Source of the DNA: Prevotella sp.
GTDB taxonomy: Bacteria; Bacteroidota; Bacteroidia; Bacteroidales; Bacteroidaceae
Length of the DNA: 38,137 nt
Assembly (NCBI GenBank): GCA_017449025.1
Contig: JAFSKJ010000103.1
Coordinates: forward strand, 1 to 38,137
Direction: 5' to 3'
A program made the translations under genes and the position numbers. How positions within the stretch are numbered: position 1 is the first letter of the stretch; each line of letters opens with the position of its first letter. The notes below the pieces were generated by a model, which saw only the letters and a program-made list of their open reading frames with translations, did no database searches and had not been told where the DNA came from. Below, in pieces: positions 24,383 to 34,053 of the stretch.

Positions 24383-24414
24383 CCGTCGTAAATAAATTTA
24401 CGGCGGTTTTTTTT
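24383..24414 (+). terminator. rho-independent terminator after the M13 gene
   Basis: Ten-base stem (24383-24392 with 24397-24406, one G-U pair), four-base loop, then eight T. The end of the T-run is also the -33 element of the next promoter. Confidence 0.88.
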
Positions 24415-24442
24415 GCCATATCAGTTTTTATTTGTAACTTTG
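24412..24442 (+). promoter_or_regulatory. promoter of the kinase/FHA/AAA+/PP2C operon
   Basis: TTTG (24412-24415), 19 bases, TAACTTTG (24435-24442): a full Bacteroidetes promoter 29 bases before ATG 24472. No other promoter of this quality was found between 24472 and 37000, so it may drive everything to 36990. Confidence 0.8.
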
Positions 24443-24471
24443 CGGCCAATACAACTAAAAAACGAAACTCC

Positions 24472-25413
24472 ATGCCAGACGAAATAACTATCAGACCTAA
24501 TGCCGCGGGCAGCAACTCAGAGACGATGCAGCGAGAAGAGCTGCAACAGAGCCTCCCTTCCAACGACACCACCGCACAGAGCCAGACTATCGCGCGGCAG
24601 GCCACAGGTGTTGCCTGCCCCTATTGTCATACCATCAATGATGCCGACGCATCCTTCTGCGCCAGCTGTGGCAAGCCGTTGCGCAAGGGCGCATGCCCAA
24701 ACTGCGGCAGCGAGCTTGACCTCGACGCCGACTTCTGCGAGGTGTGCCACCAATATGTCCGCCACGACATCTGTTCCTTCTGCGGAGCATCGATAAGCTC
24801 CGACGATGCCTTCTGCCCCGAATGCGGCAGTCCAAGGGGAGGCATTGTGTGCCCCACATGCAACACCCTGAACAACTTTGCCTTCTGCAAGATGTGCGGC
24901 ACACCGCTCACCGACGAGGCCAAGGGAATGGTAGAGCAGATACGCCAGCAACCAGAGTTCGAAATGCTGAAAGAGGCCGCACGCGAGCTTGACGAGCTTA
25001 ACATGCAGGTGCCATACAAGTCAGAGCGCGACGTAATCAGAGACCAGATGAACGAGAAGCTGCGCGAACGGATACTGCTGCTACTGGCAAGAGACAAAGG
25101 CGTAGCCAACCCTATCGTTCCGCCAATGGAGAAGAAGCGCATGACAACGGAAGAGCTGATGAAGAAAAAGGAAGAGAAGCAAAAACAGATAACCGACATC
25201 CTGGACAGAATGGCATTACCGCCAATGGCATCGCCCGCCAAGGCCCGCAACTACGCCATGGCCCAGAAGCCGATGGGAGTAAGACTGGCATGGGTCTGCA
25301 ACTTCAAGCACGCCATGCACTCCAGCCCCTGCGGCTGCGCCAAGCCACAGTTGGGCGGCAAATGGATTATCTTAGGCAGGAACAACAACCAAGAGATTAA
25401 GGACGACAAGTAA
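24472..25413 (+). CDS. protein with four zinc ribbons, first gene of the phospho-signalling operon
   Basis: 313 residues, no membrane segment or enzyme domain. Four CxxC...CxxC zinc ribbons lie in tandem: C49/52/63/66, C75/78/89/92, C101/104/115/118 and C127/130/139/142. An acidic, Lys-rich helical stretch follows (about 145-245). Near residues 275-295 a second metal-site-like cluster appears (CNFKHAMHSSPCGCAKP), ending in GGKWIILGRNNN. The first 48 residues are Ser/Thr/Gln rich and could be phosphorylated. It is probably a scaffold or adaptor for the kinase, whose gene starts nine bases downstream. I know no characterised homologue; function is inferred from context only. Confidence 0.8.
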   Translation: MPDEITIRPNAAGSNSETMQREELQQSLPSNDTTAQSQTIARQATGVACPYCHTINDADASFCASCGKPLRKGACPNCGSELDLDADFCEVCHQYVRHDICSFCGASISSDDAFCPECGSPRGGIVCPTCNTLNNFAFCKMCGTPLTDEAKGMVEQIRQQPEFEMLKEAARELDELNMQVPYKSERDVIRDQMNEKLRERILLLLARDKGVANPIVPPMEKKRMTTEELMKKKEEKQKQITDILDRMALPPMASPAKARNYAMAQKPMGVRLAWVCNFKHAMHSSPCGCAKPQLGGKWIILGRNNNQEIKDDK

Positions 25414-25422
25414 ACATCGACT

Positions 25423-28400
25423 ATGGACTCATTCACCGACGACAATACACTACGAACACTCAACACCCAAGGCAACGCCGCCGGAAAAGGCCTCACCTTG
25501 GACGACCAAAGCACCTTCAAGCCCACGGACAAGTCTGCGATGTCGCAGCCGTCGTTCACGTTCAGGGCGGAAAGAACCGTACAGGGCGACACCGCCACGC
25601 CAACCACCAACGACGACAATGACACGTTCTTCCTGAAGGGCAAGACATACAAAAGCATCAAGTGCCTCAGCGACAGCTCGGGTGAAGCGCAAGTGTTCCT
25701 GGTGGAGCACGACGGCACCGAGTATGTGCTGAAAATCTACTATCCCAACTTCGATGTCAACAAGAAGCTGCTGCTTACCATACGCTCTTTCCAGTTCGAG
25801 ATGATAGTAAGGCTCTACGACTTCGGAAAGACATACGTCAACGGCAAGCACCGCTACTACGAGCTGATGGAATACCTTCGCGGCGGCACTCTCAACCACT
25901 ACAAGCTGGGGCACGACATGAACCGCTTCCGCCGCATAGCCCTACAGGGAGCTGCCGCACTGGCCTACTGCCACAACAACAACATACTGCACAAGGACAT
26001 TAAGCCCGGCAACTTCTTCTTCCGCGACGATAGCCACGAGGAACTGGTGCTCGGCGACTTCGGCATATCGTCGATGCTGGAAAAAGACGGCAAGGCACAC
26101 CGTACGACGCAAGCCCGCACACCCATCTACGCAGCACCGGAAATGTACACCGACGTAATCGACGGCGTGGTAGAGCTGACACCAGCCGCCGACTTCTACT
26201 CATTGGGCATCACGCTCTTCACCCTTTGGCTCGAAGAGAACCCGCTAAGCGCCAACGAGCGCATCATGATGAGGCAGAAGAACGAGGGCAGACTGCCCAG
26301 GCTCAACGAACTGCCGGAGGAGGTGAAGCACATAGTGCAGGGACTGACTGCCGTCAACCCCATGAACCGCTGGGGACTGGAGGAGGTTGAGAAGTGGTTC
26401 CAGGGCGAGGAGGTGCCTGTTGACATCAGCTCGCCGTACCTCAGATACAAGAGCTTCATCGTAGACCCCGAGCGCAACCTCGTTGCCGACAACGTACACG
26501 AGCTAATACCACTGCTCGTAGACAACGAGCGGTTAGCCATCGGCTACCTCTACAACGGACGCATAAGCCAGTGGTTGGAATCATGCGGCAATGTGAAGCT
26601 GGCAACAGTGGTGAAGGACATCGTTGTAAACCGCTACCCCGTTGACCAGCACGCAGGACTAATAGCATCGGTATATGCCATGGAGCCCACATATCCTTAT
26701 ACGGACGTGACAGGAAACGTATGCGACGACATTCACGACATTGCCATCTCGCTGCTCAGCTATCAAGACCAGTACGGCATGCTGCTGCGCAACCCCAACG
26801 ACTCGCTGTTCCTTTATTTAGAGAGCCACACAAAGTGCGACATCGACCGCCTGCGCTCTTACTTCGGCCACTCAGCCTCCAACCTCGACCATGTAAACAA
26901 CAAAAAGATAGACACCCGCATAGCCATACTGAAATGCGTCTTCGAGATAGACAAGGACATTCCGTTCCTGACCAAGTACCAGTCGTCTACCATTGAGGAC
27001 ATTGTCAGAGCCTTCGGCAATGAAAAGCTCACCGATGACGACTGGCACAGCCTCACCGACGGAAGGCTGCTGTCGTGGATGCTGAACCACGAGGACATGA
27101 TGGCCTGCGAGAGCCTGCGCATACTCACCCGGGGGCAGCAATACTCCGACGCGCTGGCCTACAAGGTGCTCTACAACCTCGACCGCAAGGCTGCCTACGA
27201 CCTGAAGGGCGCCAACACCCCCGAGAAGGTGGGCCACATACTCAACAAGCGCCTGCAAGACGCCGAGCACTTGGACGACAAGGAGTTTGCCAAGGCACTC
27301 AACGATTTTGCCGACCCCAACGGCCGCTTTGCCTACTTTGCACAGCTGCACGGATGGGTGGAGGTCCTGGCCGAGTCCGGCCGCACGTTCGACTTCAAGT
27401 CGGAGGAGAACAAGGAGCGCCTGGGTTCCTACGACCTGAAGACAGCGGCATACAGGTTCTGCCGGATACTTGGCGTGACGCCCACCTACCTGCTGCCTGA
27501 CGGCACCGAACTCACCGACGGCCGCTCCATTTCCCCCAACACCAAGCCACAGGTGATGGGCGAGCTCAGAAACGGCAACCTGGCACAGTGGATGGCCGTC
27601 TTCTACCACGAAGACCCCGCACGCGACTTCTCCGAGCAATACTCATACGAGCACGAACTGGAAAAGTGGGTGCTGGCGCTCGGCGAGATAGACAAGACAC
27701 AGACATTCTACAAGCGCTTTGTGGATGCCTGCAACGAAACGTCACGGAAGATGAACGAAGTGCGCACAGGATGGCAAAACGCCAAGCGCAAGGAAAACAC
27801 CTGGCGCTACACTTTCTACGGCCTCTGCGCCGTGTGGATGCTGCTGGTGCTCATCTTCGGAGTCAGCGGCCGCGACTTCATGCTGCGACACTCGTTCATA
27901 ACAATAGGAATGCCATTGGGAGGCATGACGGCAATAATAGTGGCCACCAGGGCATACTTCAGGGGCTACGGCAGCCTCATGTCGGCACTGTGGGGACTGG
28001 TAGGCGCTCTGTCGGCCTTCATCCCCATCTGGGTAATGAAGTTTTGCAACACCAACGCACCGGGGCTGTTCAACATTGCCATCGTGCTGATGACGCTCGT
28101 CTACATGCTCGTGTGCCACCTTACAGATTTCAGAGGCGACGAGAAGGCCGACAACAAGCTTATCAACGAGGTTATGGAAGACGACATACAGTCAACGCTT
28201 ATAGAGCCTCTCTACTACACATTCAAGACAAAGTCGTACAGGTTCAAAGGCTCTAAGTTCGGACTGCTCGACGACGTGTCCGACCAAGTGCGCTCCATAT
28301 CCGGAGAGTCCGTGCTCCATTACATCCTCTGGAGCCTGTTAGTGGCTGGCCTGGTGGCCGAGTTTGTGGTGTTCAGCCCCAAGCTGCTTAACCTCCGCAA

Positions 28401-28473
28401 CCCCTACCTCGACAGCAACTGGAAGCTCCAGCCAACAAAGGTCATCAAACAATTAGAACGCGACGTAGAATAA
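25423..28473 (+). CDS. membrane-anchored Ser/Thr protein kinase-like protein
   Basis: 1016 residues. Residues 1-70 are Thr/Asp rich with TxxD sites (T25, T61, T62), the pThr+3 Asp pattern FHA domains favour. The kinase domain (about 75-330) has the ATP-binding Lys K104 in YVLKIYYP, catalytic loop HKDIKPGN (190-197), DFG at 212-214 and APE at 238-240. The glycine loop is weak and no Glu is obvious where the alpha-C helix glutamate should be. A large region of unknown fold follows (340-790), then about five membrane helices (797-905 and 966-985). So kinase and middle region are cytoplasmic. Its stop overlaps the next start (TAATG). It is the likely writer for the FHA reader and the substrate of the PP2C encoded downstream. 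Confidence 0.88.
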   Translation: MDSFTDDNTLRTLNTQGNAAGKGLTLDDQSTFKPTDKSAMSQPSFTFRAERTVQGDTATPTTNDDNDTFFLKGKTYKSIKCLSDSSGEAQVFLVEHDGTEYVLKIYYPNFDVNKKLLLTIRSFQFEMIVRLYDFGKTYVNGKHRYYELMEYLRGGTLNHYKLGHDMNRFRRIALQGAAALAYCHNNNILHKDIKPGNFFFRDDSHEELVLGDFGISSMLEKDGKAHRTTQARTPIYAAPEMYTDVIDGVVELTPAADFYSLGITLFTLWLEENPLSANERIMMRQKNEGRLPRLNELPEEVKHIVQGLTAVNPMNRWGLEEVEKWFQGEEVPVDISSPYLRYKSFIVDPERNLVADNVHELIPLLVDNERLAIGYLYNGRISQWLESCGNVKLATVVKDIVVNRYPVDQHAGLIASVYAMEPTYPYTDVTGNVCDDIHDIAISLLSYQDQYGMLLRNPNDSLFLYLESHTKCDIDRLRSYFGHSASNLDHVNNKKIDTRIAILKCVFEIDKDIPFLTKYQSSTIEDIVRAFGNEKLTDDDWHSLTDGRLLSWMLNHEDMMACESLRILTRGQQYSDALAYKVLYNLDRKAAYDLKGANTPEKVGHILNKRLQDAEHLDDKEFAKALNDFADPNGRFAYFAQLHGWVEVLAESGRTFDFKSEENKERLGSYDLKTAAYRFCRILGVTPTYLLPDGTELTDGRSISPNTKPQVMGELRNGNLAQWMAVFYHEDPARDFSEQYSYEHELEKWVLALGEIDKTQTFYKRFVDACNETSRKMNEVRTGWQNAKRKENTWRYTFYGLCAVWMLLVLIFGVSGRDFMLRHSFITIGMPLGGMTAIIVATRAYFRGYGSLMSALWGLVGALSAFIPIWVMKFCNTNAPGLFNIAIVLMTLVYMLVCHLTDFRGDEKADNKLINEVMEDDIQSTLIEPLYYTFKTKSYRFKGSKFGLLDDVSDQVRSISGESVLHYILWSLLVAGLVAEFVVFSPKLLNLRNPYLDSNWKLQPTKVIKQLERDVE

Positions 28474-31400
28474 TGAAGTGTGAGCATTGTCACCAAGAGA
28501 ACCGCAGCATAGCAAAGTTCTGCCGGCACTGCGGACACCCACTTGCCAACCATAACGTGCTCGACAAGCTGGTGGGACTTTCAGACCTGAAAGCCCAGCT
28601 CAAGACAATTGTCGATACTTACACCTACCTGCACTCCAGAAAGGACATTGCCAACGTGCGGCTATCCGTAAATGCCATAATAATAGGTGAGACAGGCACA
28701 GGCAAGACAGCACTGGCAGAAATCGTGCGCGACTACTTCTACCAGCACAAGATAATAGACAAGCCAAAGCTCACGATGGTTGATGCCGTGGACTACAGCC
28801 GCTTCGTAGACAAGTGGGACGACAACATAAAGAAAGCACGCAACGGCATACTCTTCTTCGACAACGTGCAGAAGCTGCTCCCCGACAAGTACTCAAACCA
28901 GGTGAACCCGCTGGACAAGCTCTTCGTGGAGATGGACAAGTGGGACGATACGCCCATTGTGTTCATGTCAGGACTGCCAAAGGGACTCGACGACTTCCTT
29001 GAGAGCAACCCGGCAGTGGCAAACCGCTTCAAATACACCTTCCGCCTGCCAACACCGGGCTACCAGGAGCTTTGCGACATCACCAAGGAAACACTGCGCT
29101 CACGCTACGGCCTCACCGCCTTCTCGCCAGAGGCCGACAAGCAGCTGCGCCGCTACTTCAAGCACCAGATAAAGACCAAGGACGACACCTTCGGCTACGG
29201 TCACGTGGCCATCAAGACAGCCGAGGACATCTTCACATCGTTCATAAGCCGCGGAGCTGCCGACAAGCAGATAGAGGTGAGCGACATCAGAGGCTACGTG
29301 CCCAAGGAGCGGACACTCGACGAGATACTCCACGACCTGGACTCTTTCATAGGCATGGACGAGGTGAAGCAGGCTGTGCGCGAGATTGCCTTCTCGGTAC
29401 AGAACAGCATACAGAGACAGGAGCGCGGACTGGGAGAACAGGAAAAGCTCTCCATGCACATCATACTCACCGGAAACCCAGGCACGGGAAAAACCACCAT
29501 AGCACGCAAGTTAGGAGAGATACTGGCCGCCATAGGCTACCTCGACAGCGGACACGTAGTAGAGGTAGACCGCGCCAAGATGGTAAGCCCATACCAGGGC
29601 GAGACACCCAAAGTGGTGGACAGGCTCTGCGACAAGGCCATGGGAGGAATACTCTTCGTAGACGAGGCATACACGCTGGCACCGGTAAGCCAAGCCGGCG
29701 ACCGCGACAATCAGGGGGCACAGGCATTGGAGAAGCTGATGAAGCGCATGGAGGACGACCGCGGGAAGTTCGTCGTCATAGCTGCCGGATACCGCACGGA
29801 GATGGACAACCTGTTCCGCGTGAACCCCGGATTCAAGAGCCGCTTCAACTACTTCCTCAACATCGACGACTACTCACCCGAACAGCTGTTCGACATAATG
29901 TGCGTCTTCGCACGCGAGAAGAAGTACATCTTCTCCGAGCAGGCCAAGGCCAAGGCCATGCGCTGCATCACCGACATGTACAACATGCGCGACAAGGACT
30001 TCGCCAACGGCCGCACCATGCGCACACTGTTCGACGAGATATGCAAGAAGCAGGCCCAGCGGCTGCAGTACAATGACATATCGGCGATGAGCAACGAACA
30101 GCTGATGACCATCGAGGACGAGGACGTGCCCTACGAGACACCGCAGGCCGTCAGTTACACCGACTGCCTAAAGAAACTCGACGGACTGGTGGGACTGTCG
30201 GCAGTGAAGAAGGAGATTTCCAACCTCGCCGCCTTCCTCAACCTGCAGATACGCCGCGGAGAGAGCAACACCTTCCAGGGCAAGCACTACGTGTTCACCG
30301 GTAATCCGGGCACGGGAAAGACCACCGTGGCGCGCATCATGGCCGACGTGTTCAAGACCCTCGGAATTGTGGCTCGCGGACAGCTCGTTGAGGCCGACCG
30401 CTCAAAGCTCGTGGCTGGCTACAGCGGCCAGACAGCCATCAAGACCAACCAGCTTATCGACACCGCCCTGGGAGGAGTGCTTTTCATCGACGAGGCATAC
30501 ACACTGAAGTCGAACGACGGCGACTCCTTCGGTGCAGAGGCCATCGACACCCTGCTGAAGAGACTCGAGGACGACCGTGGAAAGTTCGTATGCATTGTTG
30601 CGGGTTACACCGACCAGATGCACGACTTCATCGACTCCAACCCGGGACTGAAGAGCCGCTTCACGCAAACCATACACTTCGACGACTATTCACCCGACGA
30701 GCTGACGGAGATATTCCTCAACCTGGCCAAGGAAAAGAAGTTCATCGTAGACGAGGAGACCAGCGCCTCCATACACCGGCAGTTCGAGCAGCTCTACCTC
30801 CGCCGCGACAAGAACTTCGGCAACGCCCGCGAGGCACGGCGCATCTTCAACGAGGCCATCGAGAAGCAGAGCCAGCGCCTTGTGGGACTCATGAGCGATC
30901 CCAGCCTCAAAGAGGAGGACATGTACAAGATTCTGCCCGCAGACCTTCCAACAGCCCAGAACGAAAAGGCACGTCCGCTCGACGAGGTGCTCAACGAACT
31001 CGACGACTACGTGGGCATGCGCTCGGTGAAGAACTCCATACGCAGGCTGGCCGTGCAGAGCATGTTCATGAAGCAGAGAGCCGCCATGGGCGCAGGAAAA
31101 GTGCAGCAGATGGCCATGAACTTCATACTTACCGGCAACCCGGGTACAGGCAAGACCACGATAGCACGAAAGATGGGAGAAATACTCTACTCCATGGACA
31201 TACTACCCACAAGCCGCGTGCTCGAAACAAGCCGGGCAACGCTGGTGGGAAAGTACATGGGCGAGACGCCGAAAATTGTGAACAAGATGTGCGACAAGGC
31301 CATGGGAGGAATACTCTTCATCGACGAGGCATATACGCTCAGCGAAAAAGACGACCAATACGGCAAGGAGGCCATAGACACCCTCATGAAGCGCATGGAG

Positions 31401-31787
31401 GACGACCGCGGGAAGTTCGTAGTCATTGCAGCAGGCTACAAGGACAAGATGGATGCCTTCATGCAGACCAACTCCGGCCTTGCAAGCCGCTTCACCCACA
31501 AGCTGCACATCGACGACTACAACGAAGACGAGCTGCTGGCCATCTTCAAGAAAATGGCACAGCGAGAACAGTACACACTGTCGCCGCCCGCTGAGTTCAA
31601 GGTGCTCAACGTCATCTACAAGATGATGATGAACAAGGATGCCACCTTCGGCAACGCCCGCGAGATGCGCAACCTGCTCGACGCCACCATACAGCAGCTC
31701 TCGCAGCGCGTGTCGCAGCTACCGCCCGACCAGATAACCAAAGAGACCTACCAGGTCATATTACCAGAAGACATTACAGAATTATGA
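28473..31787 (+). CDS. zinc ribbon plus four tandem CbxX/CfxQ-type AAA+ modules
   Basis: 1104 residues. An N-terminal zinc ribbon (CEHC 3-6, CRHC 17-20) precedes four AAA+ modules. Walker A motifs are at 72-79 (GETGTGKT), 334-341, 610-617 and 888-895 (each GNPGTGKT). Walker B motifs are at 126-130, 393-398, 669-674 and 947-952. Module 1 has ILFFDN, lacking the catalytic Glu, and is divergent; modules 2-4 have the CbxX-like FxGNPGTGKT, GGxLFxDEAYTL and EDDRGKFV...AGY blocks with C-terminal GNAR-type sensor residues. The modules resemble CbbX and the AAA part of T7SS EccA, which remodel proteins. Four modules in one chain suggests a pseudo-hexameric or stacked remodelling machine. Starts in the overlap TAATG. 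Confidence 0.9.
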   Translation: MKCEHCHQENRSIAKFCRHCGHPLANHNVLDKLVGLSDLKAQLKTIVDTYTYLHSRKDIANVRLSVNAIIIGETGTGKTALAEIVRDYFYQHKIIDKPKLTMVDAVDYSRFVDKWDDNIKKARNGILFFDNVQKLLPDKYSNQVNPLDKLFVEMDKWDDTPIVFMSGLPKGLDDFLESNPAVANRFKYTFRLPTPGYQELCDITKETLRSRYGLTAFSPEADKQLRRYFKHQIKTKDDTFGYGHVAIKTAEDIFTSFISRGAADKQIEVSDIRGYVPKERTLDEILHDLDSFIGMDEVKQAVREIAFSVQNSIQRQERGLGEQEKLSMHIILTGNPGTGKTTIARKLGEILAAIGYLDSGHVVEVDRAKMVSPYQGETPKVVDRLCDKAMGGILFVDEAYTLAPVSQAGDRDNQGAQALEKLMKRMEDDRGKFVVIAAGYRTEMDNLFRVNPGFKSRFNYFLNIDDYSPEQLFDIMCVFAREKKYIFSEQAKAKAMRCITDMYNMRDKDFANGRTMRTLFDEICKKQAQRLQYNDISAMSNEQLMTIEDEDVPYETPQAVSYTDCLKKLDGLVGLSAVKKEISNLAAFLNLQIRRGESNTFQGKHYVFTGNPGTGKTTVARIMADVFKTLGIVARGQLVEADRSKLVAGYSGQTAIKTNQLIDTALGGVLFIDEAYTLKSNDGDSFGAEAIDTLLKRLEDDRGKFVCIVAGYTDQMHDFIDSNPGLKSRFTQTIHFDDYSPDELTEIFLNLAKEKKFIVDEETSASIHRQFEQLYLRRDKNFGNAREARRIFNEAIEKQSQRLVGLMSDPSLKEEDMYKILPADLPTAQNEKARPLDEVLNELDDYVGMRSVKNSIRRLAVQSMFMKQRAAMGAGKVQQMAMNFILTGNPGTGKTTIARKMGEILYSMDILPTSRVLETSRATLVGKYMGETPKIVNKMCDKAMGGILFIDEAYTLSEKDDQYGKEAIDTLMKRMEDDRGKFVVIAAGYKDKMDAFMQTNSGLASRFTHKLHIDDYNEDELLAIFKKMAQREQYTLSPPAEFKVLNVIYKMMMNKDATFGNAREMRNLLDATIQQLSQRVSQLPPDQITKETYQVILPEDITEL

Positions 31788-32347
31788 TTATTTGCCCAAG
31801 TTGTAAAGAAGAAATAGAGGACAACAGCCACTACTGCGACCAGTGCGGACAGGCACTGCTCTACTGCGACCGCTGCGGCCGCGTGGGGTTAGGACGCAGG
31901 TGTACACACTGCGGAGGACTGATGGTAACGCCCGACGGACTGGGGCACAAGGGCACAAGCGTCATGAACGCCACATCGATGTCTACGGGAATACCATCGC
32001 TCTCTACCAGCAACGTCGGAGTGTCACAGCCCTCACCCAGCAACTCCCTGCCCATGCTCATGCTTTACAACGATAGCCTGAACATACGCATACAGGGCAT
32101 CAACGGAGCAGTGATAGGCCGACGGCAAGGCCCCTACACACAGTTCTTCGCACAGAACATGTACGTATCGGGACTTCACGCACAGCTCAAGTACAACGGA
32201 CAGTCGGGATGGAGCATCTGCGACAAGCACTCCTCGAACGGCACCATGGTCAACCAGCACTCCCTGCAGCCCGACGTGGAGTTCACCATCAAGAACGGCG
32301 ACATTGTCACCCTGGCTAACGTCAACCTGCAAGTCAGCATCAGCTGA
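31784..32347 (+). CDS. zinc-ribbon and FHA domain protein
   Basis: 187 residues. Two short zinc ribbons at the N-terminus (C4/7, C18/21, C28/31, C40/43) are followed by a Ser/Thr/Pro-rich linker (50-90) and a C-terminal FHA domain. The FHA signature is present: GRR at 112-114, SGLH at 129-132 (the SxxH pair that holds phosphothreonine) and SSNGTMVN at 150-157. It should bind phosphothreonine, most simply on the kinase or the AAA+ protein. The start ATG overlaps the previous stop (ATGA), indicating translational coupling. No membrane segment. Confidence 0.9.
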   Translation: MIICPSCKEEIEDNSHYCDQCGQALLYCDRCGRVGLGRRCTHCGGLMVTPDGLGHKGTSVMNATSMSTGIPSLSTSNVGVSQPSPSNSLPMLMLYNDSLNIRIQGINGAVIGRRQGPYTQFFAQNMYVSGLHAQLKYNGQSGWSICDKHSSNGTMVNQHSLQPDVEFTIKNGDIVTLANVNLQVSIS

Positions 32348-32375
32348 GTCGGCATTCAACAATAACATAAAGAAT

Positions 32376-33119
32376 ATGGAATTCAGATTAACCGCCGACT
32401 GCCACGTCGGATGTGTGAGAGAGAACAACGAGGACATGATACTCGTAGGAAGCACCTTCCTGCGCAATGACAAGCTGTCGTGGATTTTCAACACCGACGA
32501 ACAGGAGAGGTTCATCGTTGCCGTGGCCGACGGCATGGGAGGCCACAACAGCGGAGAGGTGGCAAGCAGCGACACACTGCACAACCTGCACTACTTCTTC
32601 AACGACATACCTTCCGGACTTCCTACGAGCGACTTCAACGAGGCCATACACGTATGGCTGAAGTCCATCAACAGCATGATAGAGTCGAAGGGACTCGTCG
32701 ACCCCATATACAAAGACATGGGAACAACACTCGTCGCACTCGTACACTACGGCGGACAATTCTACTGGCTCAACTGCGGCGACAGCAGACTATACATCAT
32801 GCACAAGGGGAAGCTCCGGCGACTAACCACCGACCACTCGCTTAACGAGCTGCTCGGCCAGAAGAAGCACTCCAACATCTTAACCAACTGTATAGGAGGA
32901 GGATGCAAAACGTCGTACATCGACATCGTGGTATGCACAAACGACATACAGCCCAACGACACCATAGTGCTATGCAGCGACGGACTCACCGACATGATCT
33001 CCGACAAGGAGATGGCCGACATGCTCGCCAAAGGCTACGATGCCTCACAGCTGCGCAAGGCCGCCATCGACGCCGGAGGCAGCGACAACATTTCTGCCTG
33101 CGTAATTTACACCTATTAA
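32376..33119 (+). CDS. PP2C-type Ser/Thr protein phosphatase
   Basis: 247 residues, a stand-alone PP2C/PPM catalytic domain that removes phosphate from Ser/Thr using two metal ions. The motifs are in order: VRENNEDM, VAVADGMGGHNSGEVAS, DMGTTLVALV, NCGDSRLYIM, LTTDHSLNEL, VLCSDGLTDMIS and GGSDNISACVI. All metal-binding aspartates are present, so it should be active. The frame opens earlier (32304), but that extension overlaps the FHA gene; ATG 32376 starts the domain directly, 28 bases after the FHA stop. It is the eraser of the kinase/FHA circuit. Confidence 0.95.
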   Translation: MEFRLTADCHVGCVRENNEDMILVGSTFLRNDKLSWIFNTDEQERFIVAVADGMGGHNSGEVASSDTLHNLHYFFNDIPSGLPTSDFNEAIHVWLKSINSMIESKGLVDPIYKDMGTTLVALVHYGGQFYWLNCGDSRLYIMHKGKLRRLTTDHSLNELLGQKKHSNILTNCIGGGCKTSYIDIVVCTNDIQPNDTIVLCSDGLTDMISDKEMADMLAKGYDASQLRKAAIDAGGSDNISACVIYTY

Positions 33120-33135
33120 ATATATATAATATAAA

Positions 33136-34053
33136 GTGCCATTAAGACTTCCCGACAGACTGCCGGCAATAGACCTGCTCAAGCAGGAAAACATTTTCGT
33201 GATGGACGCCACACGCGCCCACTCACAGGACATACGCCCCCTGAAAATAGTAGTGCTCAACCTCATGCCGCTGAAAATCACCACCGAGACCGACCTCGTG
33301 CGCCTGCTCTCGAACACACCACTGCAGCTTGAGATAAGCTTCATGAAGCTACAGAGCCACACACCGAAGAACACACCCGTGGAACACATGATGATGTTCT
33401 ACCGCAGTTTCGAGGACATGCGCCACGAGAAGTTCGACGGAATGATCATCACCGGGGCTCCCGTGGAACAGCTCGACTATGAGCAGGTGAGCTACTGGGA
33501 GGAAATAACCACCATCTTCAAGTGGGCACGCACCCACGTCACCAGCACCCTCTACATCTGCTGGGCGGCCCAGGCCGGGCTGTACTACAACTACGGCGTG
33601 CCCAAGTACCCGCTGCCCACAAAGATGTTCGGCATATTCCCGCAGCGAATACTCATGCCCACGCTGCCCATCTTCAGAGGCTTCGACGACGAGTTCATGA
33701 TGCCCCACAGCCGACATACAGAGCTGCACCGCGACGACATCACGGCGTGCCCAGAGCTGACGCTCATCGCCGAGTCCGACCACAGCGGAGTGAGCATAGT
33801 CATGGCCCGAGGCGGGCGCGAGTTCTTCATAACAGGTCACATGGAATATGCACCGGACACCCTCGACCGCGAATACCGCCGCGACAAGGACATACGCACC
33901 GACGTGGCCGTTCCGGTGAACTATTACCGCGGCGACAATCCCGACAACCCGCCACACGTCACATGGCGCGCCCATGCCAACCTGTTCTATGCCAACTGGA
34001 TAAACTACTATGTCTACCAGGAGACACCATACAACATCGACGACATCAAGTAG
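33136..34053 (+). CDS. metA: homoserine O-acyltransferase, MetA type
   Basis: 305 residues; activates homoserine with succinyl- or acetyl-CoA as the first committed step to methionine. MetA-fold members differ in acyl donor and this cannot be settled by eye. The start is GTG, giving the typical PLRLPDRLPAIDLLKQENIF N-terminus. The nucleophile Cys is in YICWAAQAGLYY, the His/Glu pair in FFITGHMEYAPD, and LKIVVLNLMPLKITTETD is conserved. It lies 16 AT-only bases after the PP2C gene, so it is probably read from the same transcript. No SAM riboswitch fits in that gap. The 3' end, including the stop, is part of a perfect tandem duplication. Confidence 0.95.
   Translation: MPLRLPDRLPAIDLLKQENIFVMDATRAHSQDIRPLKIVVLNLMPLKITTETDLVRLLSNTPLQLEISFMKLQSHTPKNTPVEHMMMFYRSFEDMRHEKFDGMIITGAPVEQLDYEQVSYWEEITTIFKWARTHVTSTLYICWAAQAGLYYNYGVPKYPLPTKMFGIFPQRILMPTLPIFRGFDDEFMMPHSRHTELHRDDITACPELTLIAESDHSGVSIVMARGGREFFITGHMEYAPDTLDREYRRDKDIRTDVAVPVNYYRGDNPDNPPHVTWRAHANLFYANWINYYVYQETPYNIDDIK

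Follow-up and report, generated by a model that had tools for sequence, protein, structure and literature searches.

FHA domains read phosphothreonine, and PpkA-Fha-PppA is the threonine phosphorylation pathway of the type VI secretion system (T6SS). To our knowledge, the known members of the CbbX/SpoVK/EccA class of AAA+ proteins have one such AAA module, and few Ser/Thr phosphorylation circuits are understood in the phylum Bacteroidota. Other sets that join kinases to PP2C phosphatases are described: the KKP module, in which a PP2C precedes two kinases that carry FHA and cold-shock domains (PMC11341870), and the TerY-P triad and the GAP1-N2-linked kinase/PP2C/vWA set, with a vWA protein and a zinc ribbon fused to the kinase (PMC11090510, PMC7159879). 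Here we analyze a block of five genes in a 38,137-nucleotide stretch of DNA from Prevotella sp. (assembly GCA_017449025.1, contig JAFSKJ010000103.1), called the window below. A preliminary description of this DNA had proposed that the block encodes a phosphothreonine-switched AAA+ remodelling machine.

The five genes are co-directional, occupy together with their promoter the region 24412..33119, and lie in the order ZnR4-KIN-AAA-FHA-PP2C. The domains first assigned to their products (zinc ribbons, a Ser/Thr kinase, AAA+, a zinc ribbon with FHA, and PP2C) are all named by Pfam. We propose that the membrane kinase and the PP2C phosphatase would control the docking of the zinc-ribbon/FHA adaptor and, through it, that of the AAA+ remodeller, making the block one phosphorylation-switched system. 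We give this proposal an even chance of being correct.

A short threonine motif recurs in the tails of KIN and ZnR4, and this pattern in the residues independently supports the phosphothreonine-switch reading. In the window, the KIN tail carries DDNTLRT and ZnR4 begins with MPDEITIRP. Across the N-terminal tails of 75 Prevotella kinases (those of at least 900 residues were kept), T-[VILM]-R occurs 158 times against a mean of 7.0 in 2000 shuffles, none of which reached 158; 67 of the 75 tails carry it, and an aspartate stands at position -2 in 88 of the 158 matches. The reversed motif is at chance (4 vs 6.9), as is the form with S replacing T (4 vs 4.1), and the form with K replacing R is weakly raised (10 vs 4.8). 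Four distant kinase tails hold 16 matches compared with 0.27 in shuffles, and the FHA proteins of distant relatives bear the same motif at the C-terminus in four cases of four. The first 22 residues of ZnR4 contain 32 matches of T[VILM]R against 3.2 in shuffles, spread over 31 of 78 homologues. Per 1000 residues, the motif occurs 31.6 times in the KIN tail and 0.23 times elsewhere in the kinase. ZnR4 has a density of 10.3 over its first 45 residues and 0.05 beyond them, and the values for AAA, PP2C and the products of the neighboring MetA, M13 and U32 genes are 0.04-0.98. Because threonine is preferred over serine and FHA domains read phosphothreonine, the D-x-T-[ILV]-R type motif is a candidate phosphothreonine dock.

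The proteins that would write, read and erase such a mark keep the expected patterns. KIN matches Pfam Pkinase at 6.2e-32, and the long hydrophobic helices near its C-terminus are likely a membrane anchor. For its helical region, the structure-match lists obtained with the predicted model (which combined the window protein with 67 of 73 available homologues) were taken up by kinase domains. The FHA protein matches Pfam FHA (3.7e-12) and DZR, a double zinc ribbon (3.1e-6). Its phosphothreonine-binding patterns GR, SxxH and SSNG are found together in 84 of 86 homologues, with SxxH[AV] in all 86. By sequence it is a predicted phosphothreonine reader. PP2C matches Pfam PP2C_2 at 7.4e-14 and scores 159.9 bits on the Stp1 model, under its cut-off of 230; four motif patterns occur together in 81 of 84 homologues. 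ZnR4, a candidate scaffold, has four zinc ribbons (Pfam DZR 7.5e-26), with eight CxxC motifs in 76 of 82 homologues and six in the remaining six. Its residues 243-313 gave no Pfam match up to an E-value of 1.

The AAA protein consists of a zinc ribbon and four AAA modules, of which modules 2-4 are CbxX-type, and four Walker A motifs lie in the single chain. It fits the CbxX/CbbX-type domain class, with a CbbX-type AAA fold and AAA_lid_6. Pfam AAA matches at 1.5e-61 in four stretches and AAA_lid_6 in three, and NCBIfam places the protein in the SpoVK/EccA/CbbX group with 777.9, 712.8 and 636.6 bits, totals over four stretches in each case. The Walker B motif of module 1 reads DN, replacing DE, in 80 of 80 homologues and also in the five distant AAA proteins inspected, and modules 2-4 have DE in 80 of 80. 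Since its Walker B glutamate is replaced, module 1 is probably hydrolysis-dead; by sequence, modules 2-4 are intact. Four AAA modules are present, as in the preliminary description; they are not four equal CbxX modules, given that module 1 lacks the glutamate and AAA_lid_6 appears only three times.

The block is kept together in related genomes. A named-genome scan covered the best 80 of 141 relatives, every one of which bears the label Prevotella, Prevotellaceae or Bacteroidales and many of which have rumen isolate names. Carriers whose records are not labelled as metagenome bins include Prevotella sp. ne3005, khp7, P5-50 and P2-180. In 76 of the 80 loci the set of five genes is complete, ordered and on the same strand, and metA follows in 78. 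A contig end truncates two of the other four loci. In the genome of locus L160 (Prevotellaceae; L160 and L186), four block genes lie beside parA/parB, and PP2C lies beside metA on another contig. In that of L140 a separate contig carries the kinase, and no ZnR4 was seen within the 17 kb around it, to which the search was limited. The genomes with these two broken blocks are metagenome assemblies or similar, where misassembly is possible. At L188 (9730-10249), in the same genus, there is no PP2C between the FHA gene and metA, which are ~20 bases apart, this locus being the only part searched. PP2C in L188 and L160 may be dispensable or act in trans. Five matches to the FHA part only, together with a weaker sixth, turned out to be zinc-ribbon FHA proteins in ordinary blocks, one of which lacks PP2C. 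The neighborhood comparison suggested in the preliminary description therefore finds the set conserved as a block, in these 76 loci and also in genomes outside the class; homologues are commonly neighbors in other genomes.

These observations suggest an order of events. The membrane kinase would phosphorylate both its own tail and ZnR4 on threonines, and the zinc-ribbon/FHA adaptor would dock at the phosphorylated tails. The docked adaptor would recruit the zinc-ribbon AAA+ protein to this membrane site. There its AAA+ modules could exert a pull on a client or remodel it, much as CbbX acts on Rubisco. PP2C would reset the system. The parts and the motif are read from sequence; docking, recruitment and remodelling are steps that we infer.

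Several results weigh against this proposal. T[VILM]R is not found in 8 of the 75 Prevotella KIN tails, the strict motif occurs in only 31 of 78 ZnR4 homologues within the first 22 residues, and the linker of the Prevotella FHA proteins has no motif in 82 sequences. The motif counts, including the 158 matches, come from related sequences and are not independent events, and the shuffles ignore relatedness. The AlphaFold model of the AAA chain (which combined the window protein with 51 of 78 available homologues) has a predicted template modelling score (pTM) of 0.40, so a ring arrangement gets no support. The block lacks PP2C in L188 and L160, most sampled same-genus genomes (176 of 299) have no FHA match, and no client gene was seen travelling with the block in Prevotella, where the neighbors classified are M13, metA, ABC-F and U32. 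Binding, phosphorylation, remodelling and assembly of the complex through zinc ribbons are all predictions. The machine first proposed for this locus is partly supported: the conservation of the block and the kept catalytic and phospho-binding patterns speak for it, the T-[ILV]-R motif favors its phosphothreonine switch, and one AAA module is probably dead.

The block is laid out as an operon. Read directly from the sequence, its junctions are, in order, a 9-base gap, a TAATG overlap, an ATGA overlap and a 28-base gap, exactly the spacing first described for the five co-directional genes. A single promoter had also been noted, and one Bacteroidetes-type promoter was found ahead of the block, identified by the Bacteroidetes -33/-7 consensus. 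The pattern TTTG-N18-22-TAnnTTTG occurs within 150 bases before the first gene in 59 of 76 homologous loci against a shuffle mean of 0.27, and before the four downstream genes in none (0/78, 0/79, 0/81 and 0/80 loci). A sigma-70 scan gave nothing above chance, and overall the frequency of terminator-like sites did not exceed that in shuffles. The table lists the features.

Table. Features of the block and its borders in the window, ordered by position.
Feature	Position	Strand	Details
Terminator-like stem-loop with T-run	24383..24406	+	3' of the M13 peptidase gene, ahead of the promoter
Bacteroidetes-type promoter, TTTG-N19-TAACTTTG	24412..24442	+	TTTG 24412-24415, 19 bases, TAACTTTG 24435-24442
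ZnR4	24472..25413	+	313 amino acids
ZnR4 N-terminal PDEITIRP	24475..24498	+	candidate phospho-Thr docking motif
ZnR4 C-terminal Cys/His domain, WxC-x6-H-x3-6-C	25219..25410	+	in 82/82 homologues; conserved alignment columns
KIN	25423..28473	+	1016 amino acids
KIN disordered N-terminal tail with D-x-T-[ILVM]-R type motif	25423..25620	+	residues 1-66, predicted local distance difference test (pLDDT) <50
KIN regions			kinase domain ~65-330; helical region ~358-775; long hydrophobic helices near C-terminus
AAA	28473..31787	+	1104 amino acids
Walker B of AAA module 1	28860..28865	+	DN replacing DE
FHA	31784..32347	+	187 amino acids
PP2C	32376..33119	+	247 amino acids; ATG at 32376 taken as start
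metA, homoserine O-succinyltransferase, downstream neighbor	33136..34053	+	Pfam HTS 1.5e-132

The flanking genes encode an ABC-F-like protein, a peptidase M13, homoserine O-succinyltransferase (MetA) and a peptidase U32. In the window PP2C is followed by metA (junction at 33120-33140), and in carriers metA is without a promoter pattern of its own. None of 79 carriers has the pattern in the 150 bases preceding metA; therefore metA is probably transcribed from the block promoter, as a putative sixth gene reached by read-through. Among non-carrier loci the full pattern precedes metA in 1 of 12, which gives no clean contrast with the carriers. Because metA is the usual neighbor and probably shares the transcript, the block could act on methionine biosynthesis or on the stability of MetA. 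The position of metA after the block in 78 of 80 loci and the missing pattern before it speak for such a link, as does the genome of L160, in which PP2C stays with metA after the rest moved. However, no MetA match was found around five distant blocks (12-20 kb each), and metA is present in 12 of 17 same-genus genomes that have no AAA orthologue. We regard a role centered on MetA as very unlikely.

Presence of the block within the genus is uneven. A full-length AAA orthologue (72-86% identity) was found in 6 of 23 same-genus genomes, and all six of these first carriers have the five genes in their usual order, with the M13 gene on one side and metA on the other. The metA locus was recovered from 12 of the 17 genomes without an AAA orthologue (one genome gave two). 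In the first such loci of these 12, M13 adjoins metA with no block gene between them in eight, the ABC-F gene adjoins metA in two, and neither flank matched in two. The FHA gene is present in 123 of 299 sampled same-genus genomes, and in 40 of 130 among those of good quality. Mean pairwise distances among carriers (53 to 82 of the 82 rows, depending on the gene) are 0.200 for AAA, 0.182 for MetA, 0.233 for M13 and 0.341 for U32, and 0.400 for KIN, 0.391 for FHA, 0.411 for ZnR4 and 0.433 for PP2C. The AAA protein thus evolves nearly as slowly as MetA. Distances of block genes track those of the flanks (r 0.67-0.84) about as the flanks track one another (0.69-0.80). On an unrooted tree of 20 flank sets, presence is clustered, with at least two changes compared with a shuffled mean of 6.4. 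From these sequences, the block in this genus is usually found between the M13 gene and metA and is inherited with its flanks; the data fit long residence at one site with few gains or losses, and do not fit the pattern expected of a fast-moving defence island.

These results bear on the possibility of an anti-phage or other conflict system, in which the kinase would sense infection and the AAA+ protein would be the effector or dismantle phage structures. The patchy presence in the genus (123/299) agrees with it, and so do likenesses to PADLOC models, namely of the kinase to mad6 (2.2e-38, residues 90-323) and of AAA to TRIP13 (5.6e-26) and IetA (1.9e-24). These are matches to generic domains, however, and the kinase scores 83.2 bits on the MAD6 equivalog against a cut-off of 460, which leaves it outside MADS. 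The usual single chromosomal site, inheritance with the flanks and an AAA protein nearly as conserved as MetA argue against conflict, as do the viral-contig scan, which gave one weak FHA-only locus, and the search of 72,556 plasmid records, where neither ZnR4 nor FHA had a match. The kinase matches 313 plasmid records, in no case across more than 80% of its length, and two plasmid regions with AAA matches, read from incomplete gene tables, show no annotated kinase, FHA or PP2C alongside. A match in Gloeothece was inspected and set aside, and the AAA protein also has matches in phages. The family SUKH/SMI1-KNR4 is tied to toxin immunity, and the presence of such a gene in two distant blocks adds mild weight to a conflict role. 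A similar clostridial set on an element with integrases, described below, also speaks for it. We consider a conflict system unlikely, with some chance of being right; the conservation pattern suggests chromosomal physiology over phage defence. Assignment to a named defence family was rejected with matches limited to generic domains, and a mobile-element origin with the weak viral locus and the empty ZnR4 and FHA plasmid searches.

Inheritance with the flanks at one usual site could itself keep genes together without function, and the five genes might then be neighbors with no joint action. The same order at other sites outside the class speaks against this, as do the motif common to three of the proteins and the shared zinc ribbons. 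We give this explanation hardly any credence. Of 395 genomes drawn across the phylum, 24 match the AAA protein at 1e-90 or better (own genome included). A full block was found in one of the same genus (G433) and, in other surroundings, in four outside the class (G302, G109, G255 and G155), G109 with one gene inserted between ZnR4 and the kinase. Another outside the class, G105, has a partial block, AAA-FHA-PP2C, at a contig start. M13 and MetA neighbors were not found around the five distant blocks, in stretches of 12-20 kb each. The AAA protein in distant blocks has 4, 5 or 6 Walker A modules. A genome from another family of the same order (G035) encodes a related kinase and a zinc-ribbon AAA protein followed by the contig end, and the gene between them is weakly like nucleotidyltransferases. 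Seven other loci (L093-L099) encode CbxX-like AAA proteins of 870-1368 amino acids with two or three Walker A motifs; no other block gene lies beside AAA in these seven, and two of the genomes hold the block elsewhere. The SUKH/SMI1-KNR4 gene lies inside one block outside the class (L088, 5310-6080) and overlaps the end of another (L090, 10445-10963).

Instead, the block might act in trans to regulate a secretion or cell-surface machine, in the way that PpkA-Fha-PppA serves the T6SS or EccA the type VII secretion system (T7SS). Three signalling domain types are shared with the former, and the kinase has likely membrane helices. The best solved-structure match of the AAA protein by sequence is EccA1, and its 712.8 bits on the EccA model exceed the cut-off of 466.65 by summing four stretches; however, the best stretch covers model positions 272-548 of 557, that is, the ATPase part only, with the N-terminal part unmatched. 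Among the 14 scanned neighbor proteins of four distant full blocks (part of the neighbors), which include aconitase, a PrpD-family protein, a glycosidase, a sulfate permease and a ClpB-type ATPase, one beside L089 is a cargo protein of the type IX secretion system (T9SS) type, which favors this reading; Pfam found no T6SS or T7SS part among the 14, which counts against it. The FHA protein scores 31.9 bits on the T6SS FHA model, below its cut-off of 120.25. The absence of secretion genes noted at the outset holds as far as one T6SS and one T7SS marker go: neither the core gene VipB/TssC, for which the E. coli control was positive, nor WXG100 was found in the own genome (one genome, 80.65% complete). 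We judge regulation of such a machine distinctly improbable. The block as a secretion system was itself set aside after the empty VipB and WXG100 searches of the own genome; T9SS was not searched.

A related arrangement occurs on a plasmid of the rumen clostridium Aristaeella lactis (NZ_CP069422.1, L197 14693-29466), in a cluster on an element with integrases that encodes a kinase, an unknown protein, a zinc-ribbon FHA protein, an NrdG-like protein, a ClpB-type AAA+ protein and a PP2C. Its kinase aligns with the KIN profile over 458 columns at 99.9% probability, past the kinase domain (the part beyond was not aligned alone), and its FHA protein matches that of the block weakly (50.8%). STIRP occurs in the FHA protein, and TTINPD twice in the kinase tail. 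The cluster adjoins a DUF4011 gene. It shares a related kinase, a zinc-ribbon FHA protein, an AAA+ protein and a PP2C with the block, and differs in its ClpB-type AAA+, the extra NrdG-like protein and the element with integrases. This one case suggests that lineages differ in the AAA+ engine with which they combine the signalling set. We raise tentatively, and with more doubt than confidence, that these loci represent an undescribed class of machine: a poly-AAA+ chain of four to six modules with a conserved dead first module, recruited by a kinase/FHA/PP2C switch that recognizes a D-x-T-[ILV]-R code common to several partners, with an engine exchangeable between lineages (CbxX in Bacteroidota, ClpB in the clostridial case). 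Dynein and midasin are six-module single chains, and the six-module AAA form would, if the idea is true, be formally comparable with them.

If the phosphorylation-switched reading is correct, abundant rumen bacteria have a conserved Ser/Thr phosphorylation circuit in which protein phosphorylation is tied directly to an AAA+ remodeller. The docking motif offers a test of that reading at the level of peptides, and the clean presence/absence site permits matched comparison of close relatives.

In the open-licence literature, no paper was recognized as describing this five-gene set, in agreement with the earlier remark that no system of this composition is described. The closest systems share parts of it. 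Kinase, FHA and PP2C domain types are common to PpkA-Fha-PppA and the block, whereas the block has a poly-AAA+ protein and zinc ribbons, and no VipB was found in its genome; the likeness is an analogy only. The TerY-P triad and the GAP1-N2-linked set have kinase, PP2C and zinc ribbon in common with the block, which differs in its FHA adaptor and CbxX AAA+; vWA had no Pfam match in four block proteins, nor among 25 of the 82 families listed for AAA. With KKP the block has kinase, FHA and PP2C signalling in common, but it has one kinase and PP2C comes last. The Rubisco activase CbbX has one AAA module per chain, compared with four Walker A motifs per chain here. Unlike the known members of the CbbX/SpoVK/EccA class, the block AAA protein begins with a zinc ribbon, joins four modules in one chain (as many as six in distant relatives) and has no Walker B glutamate in the first of them.

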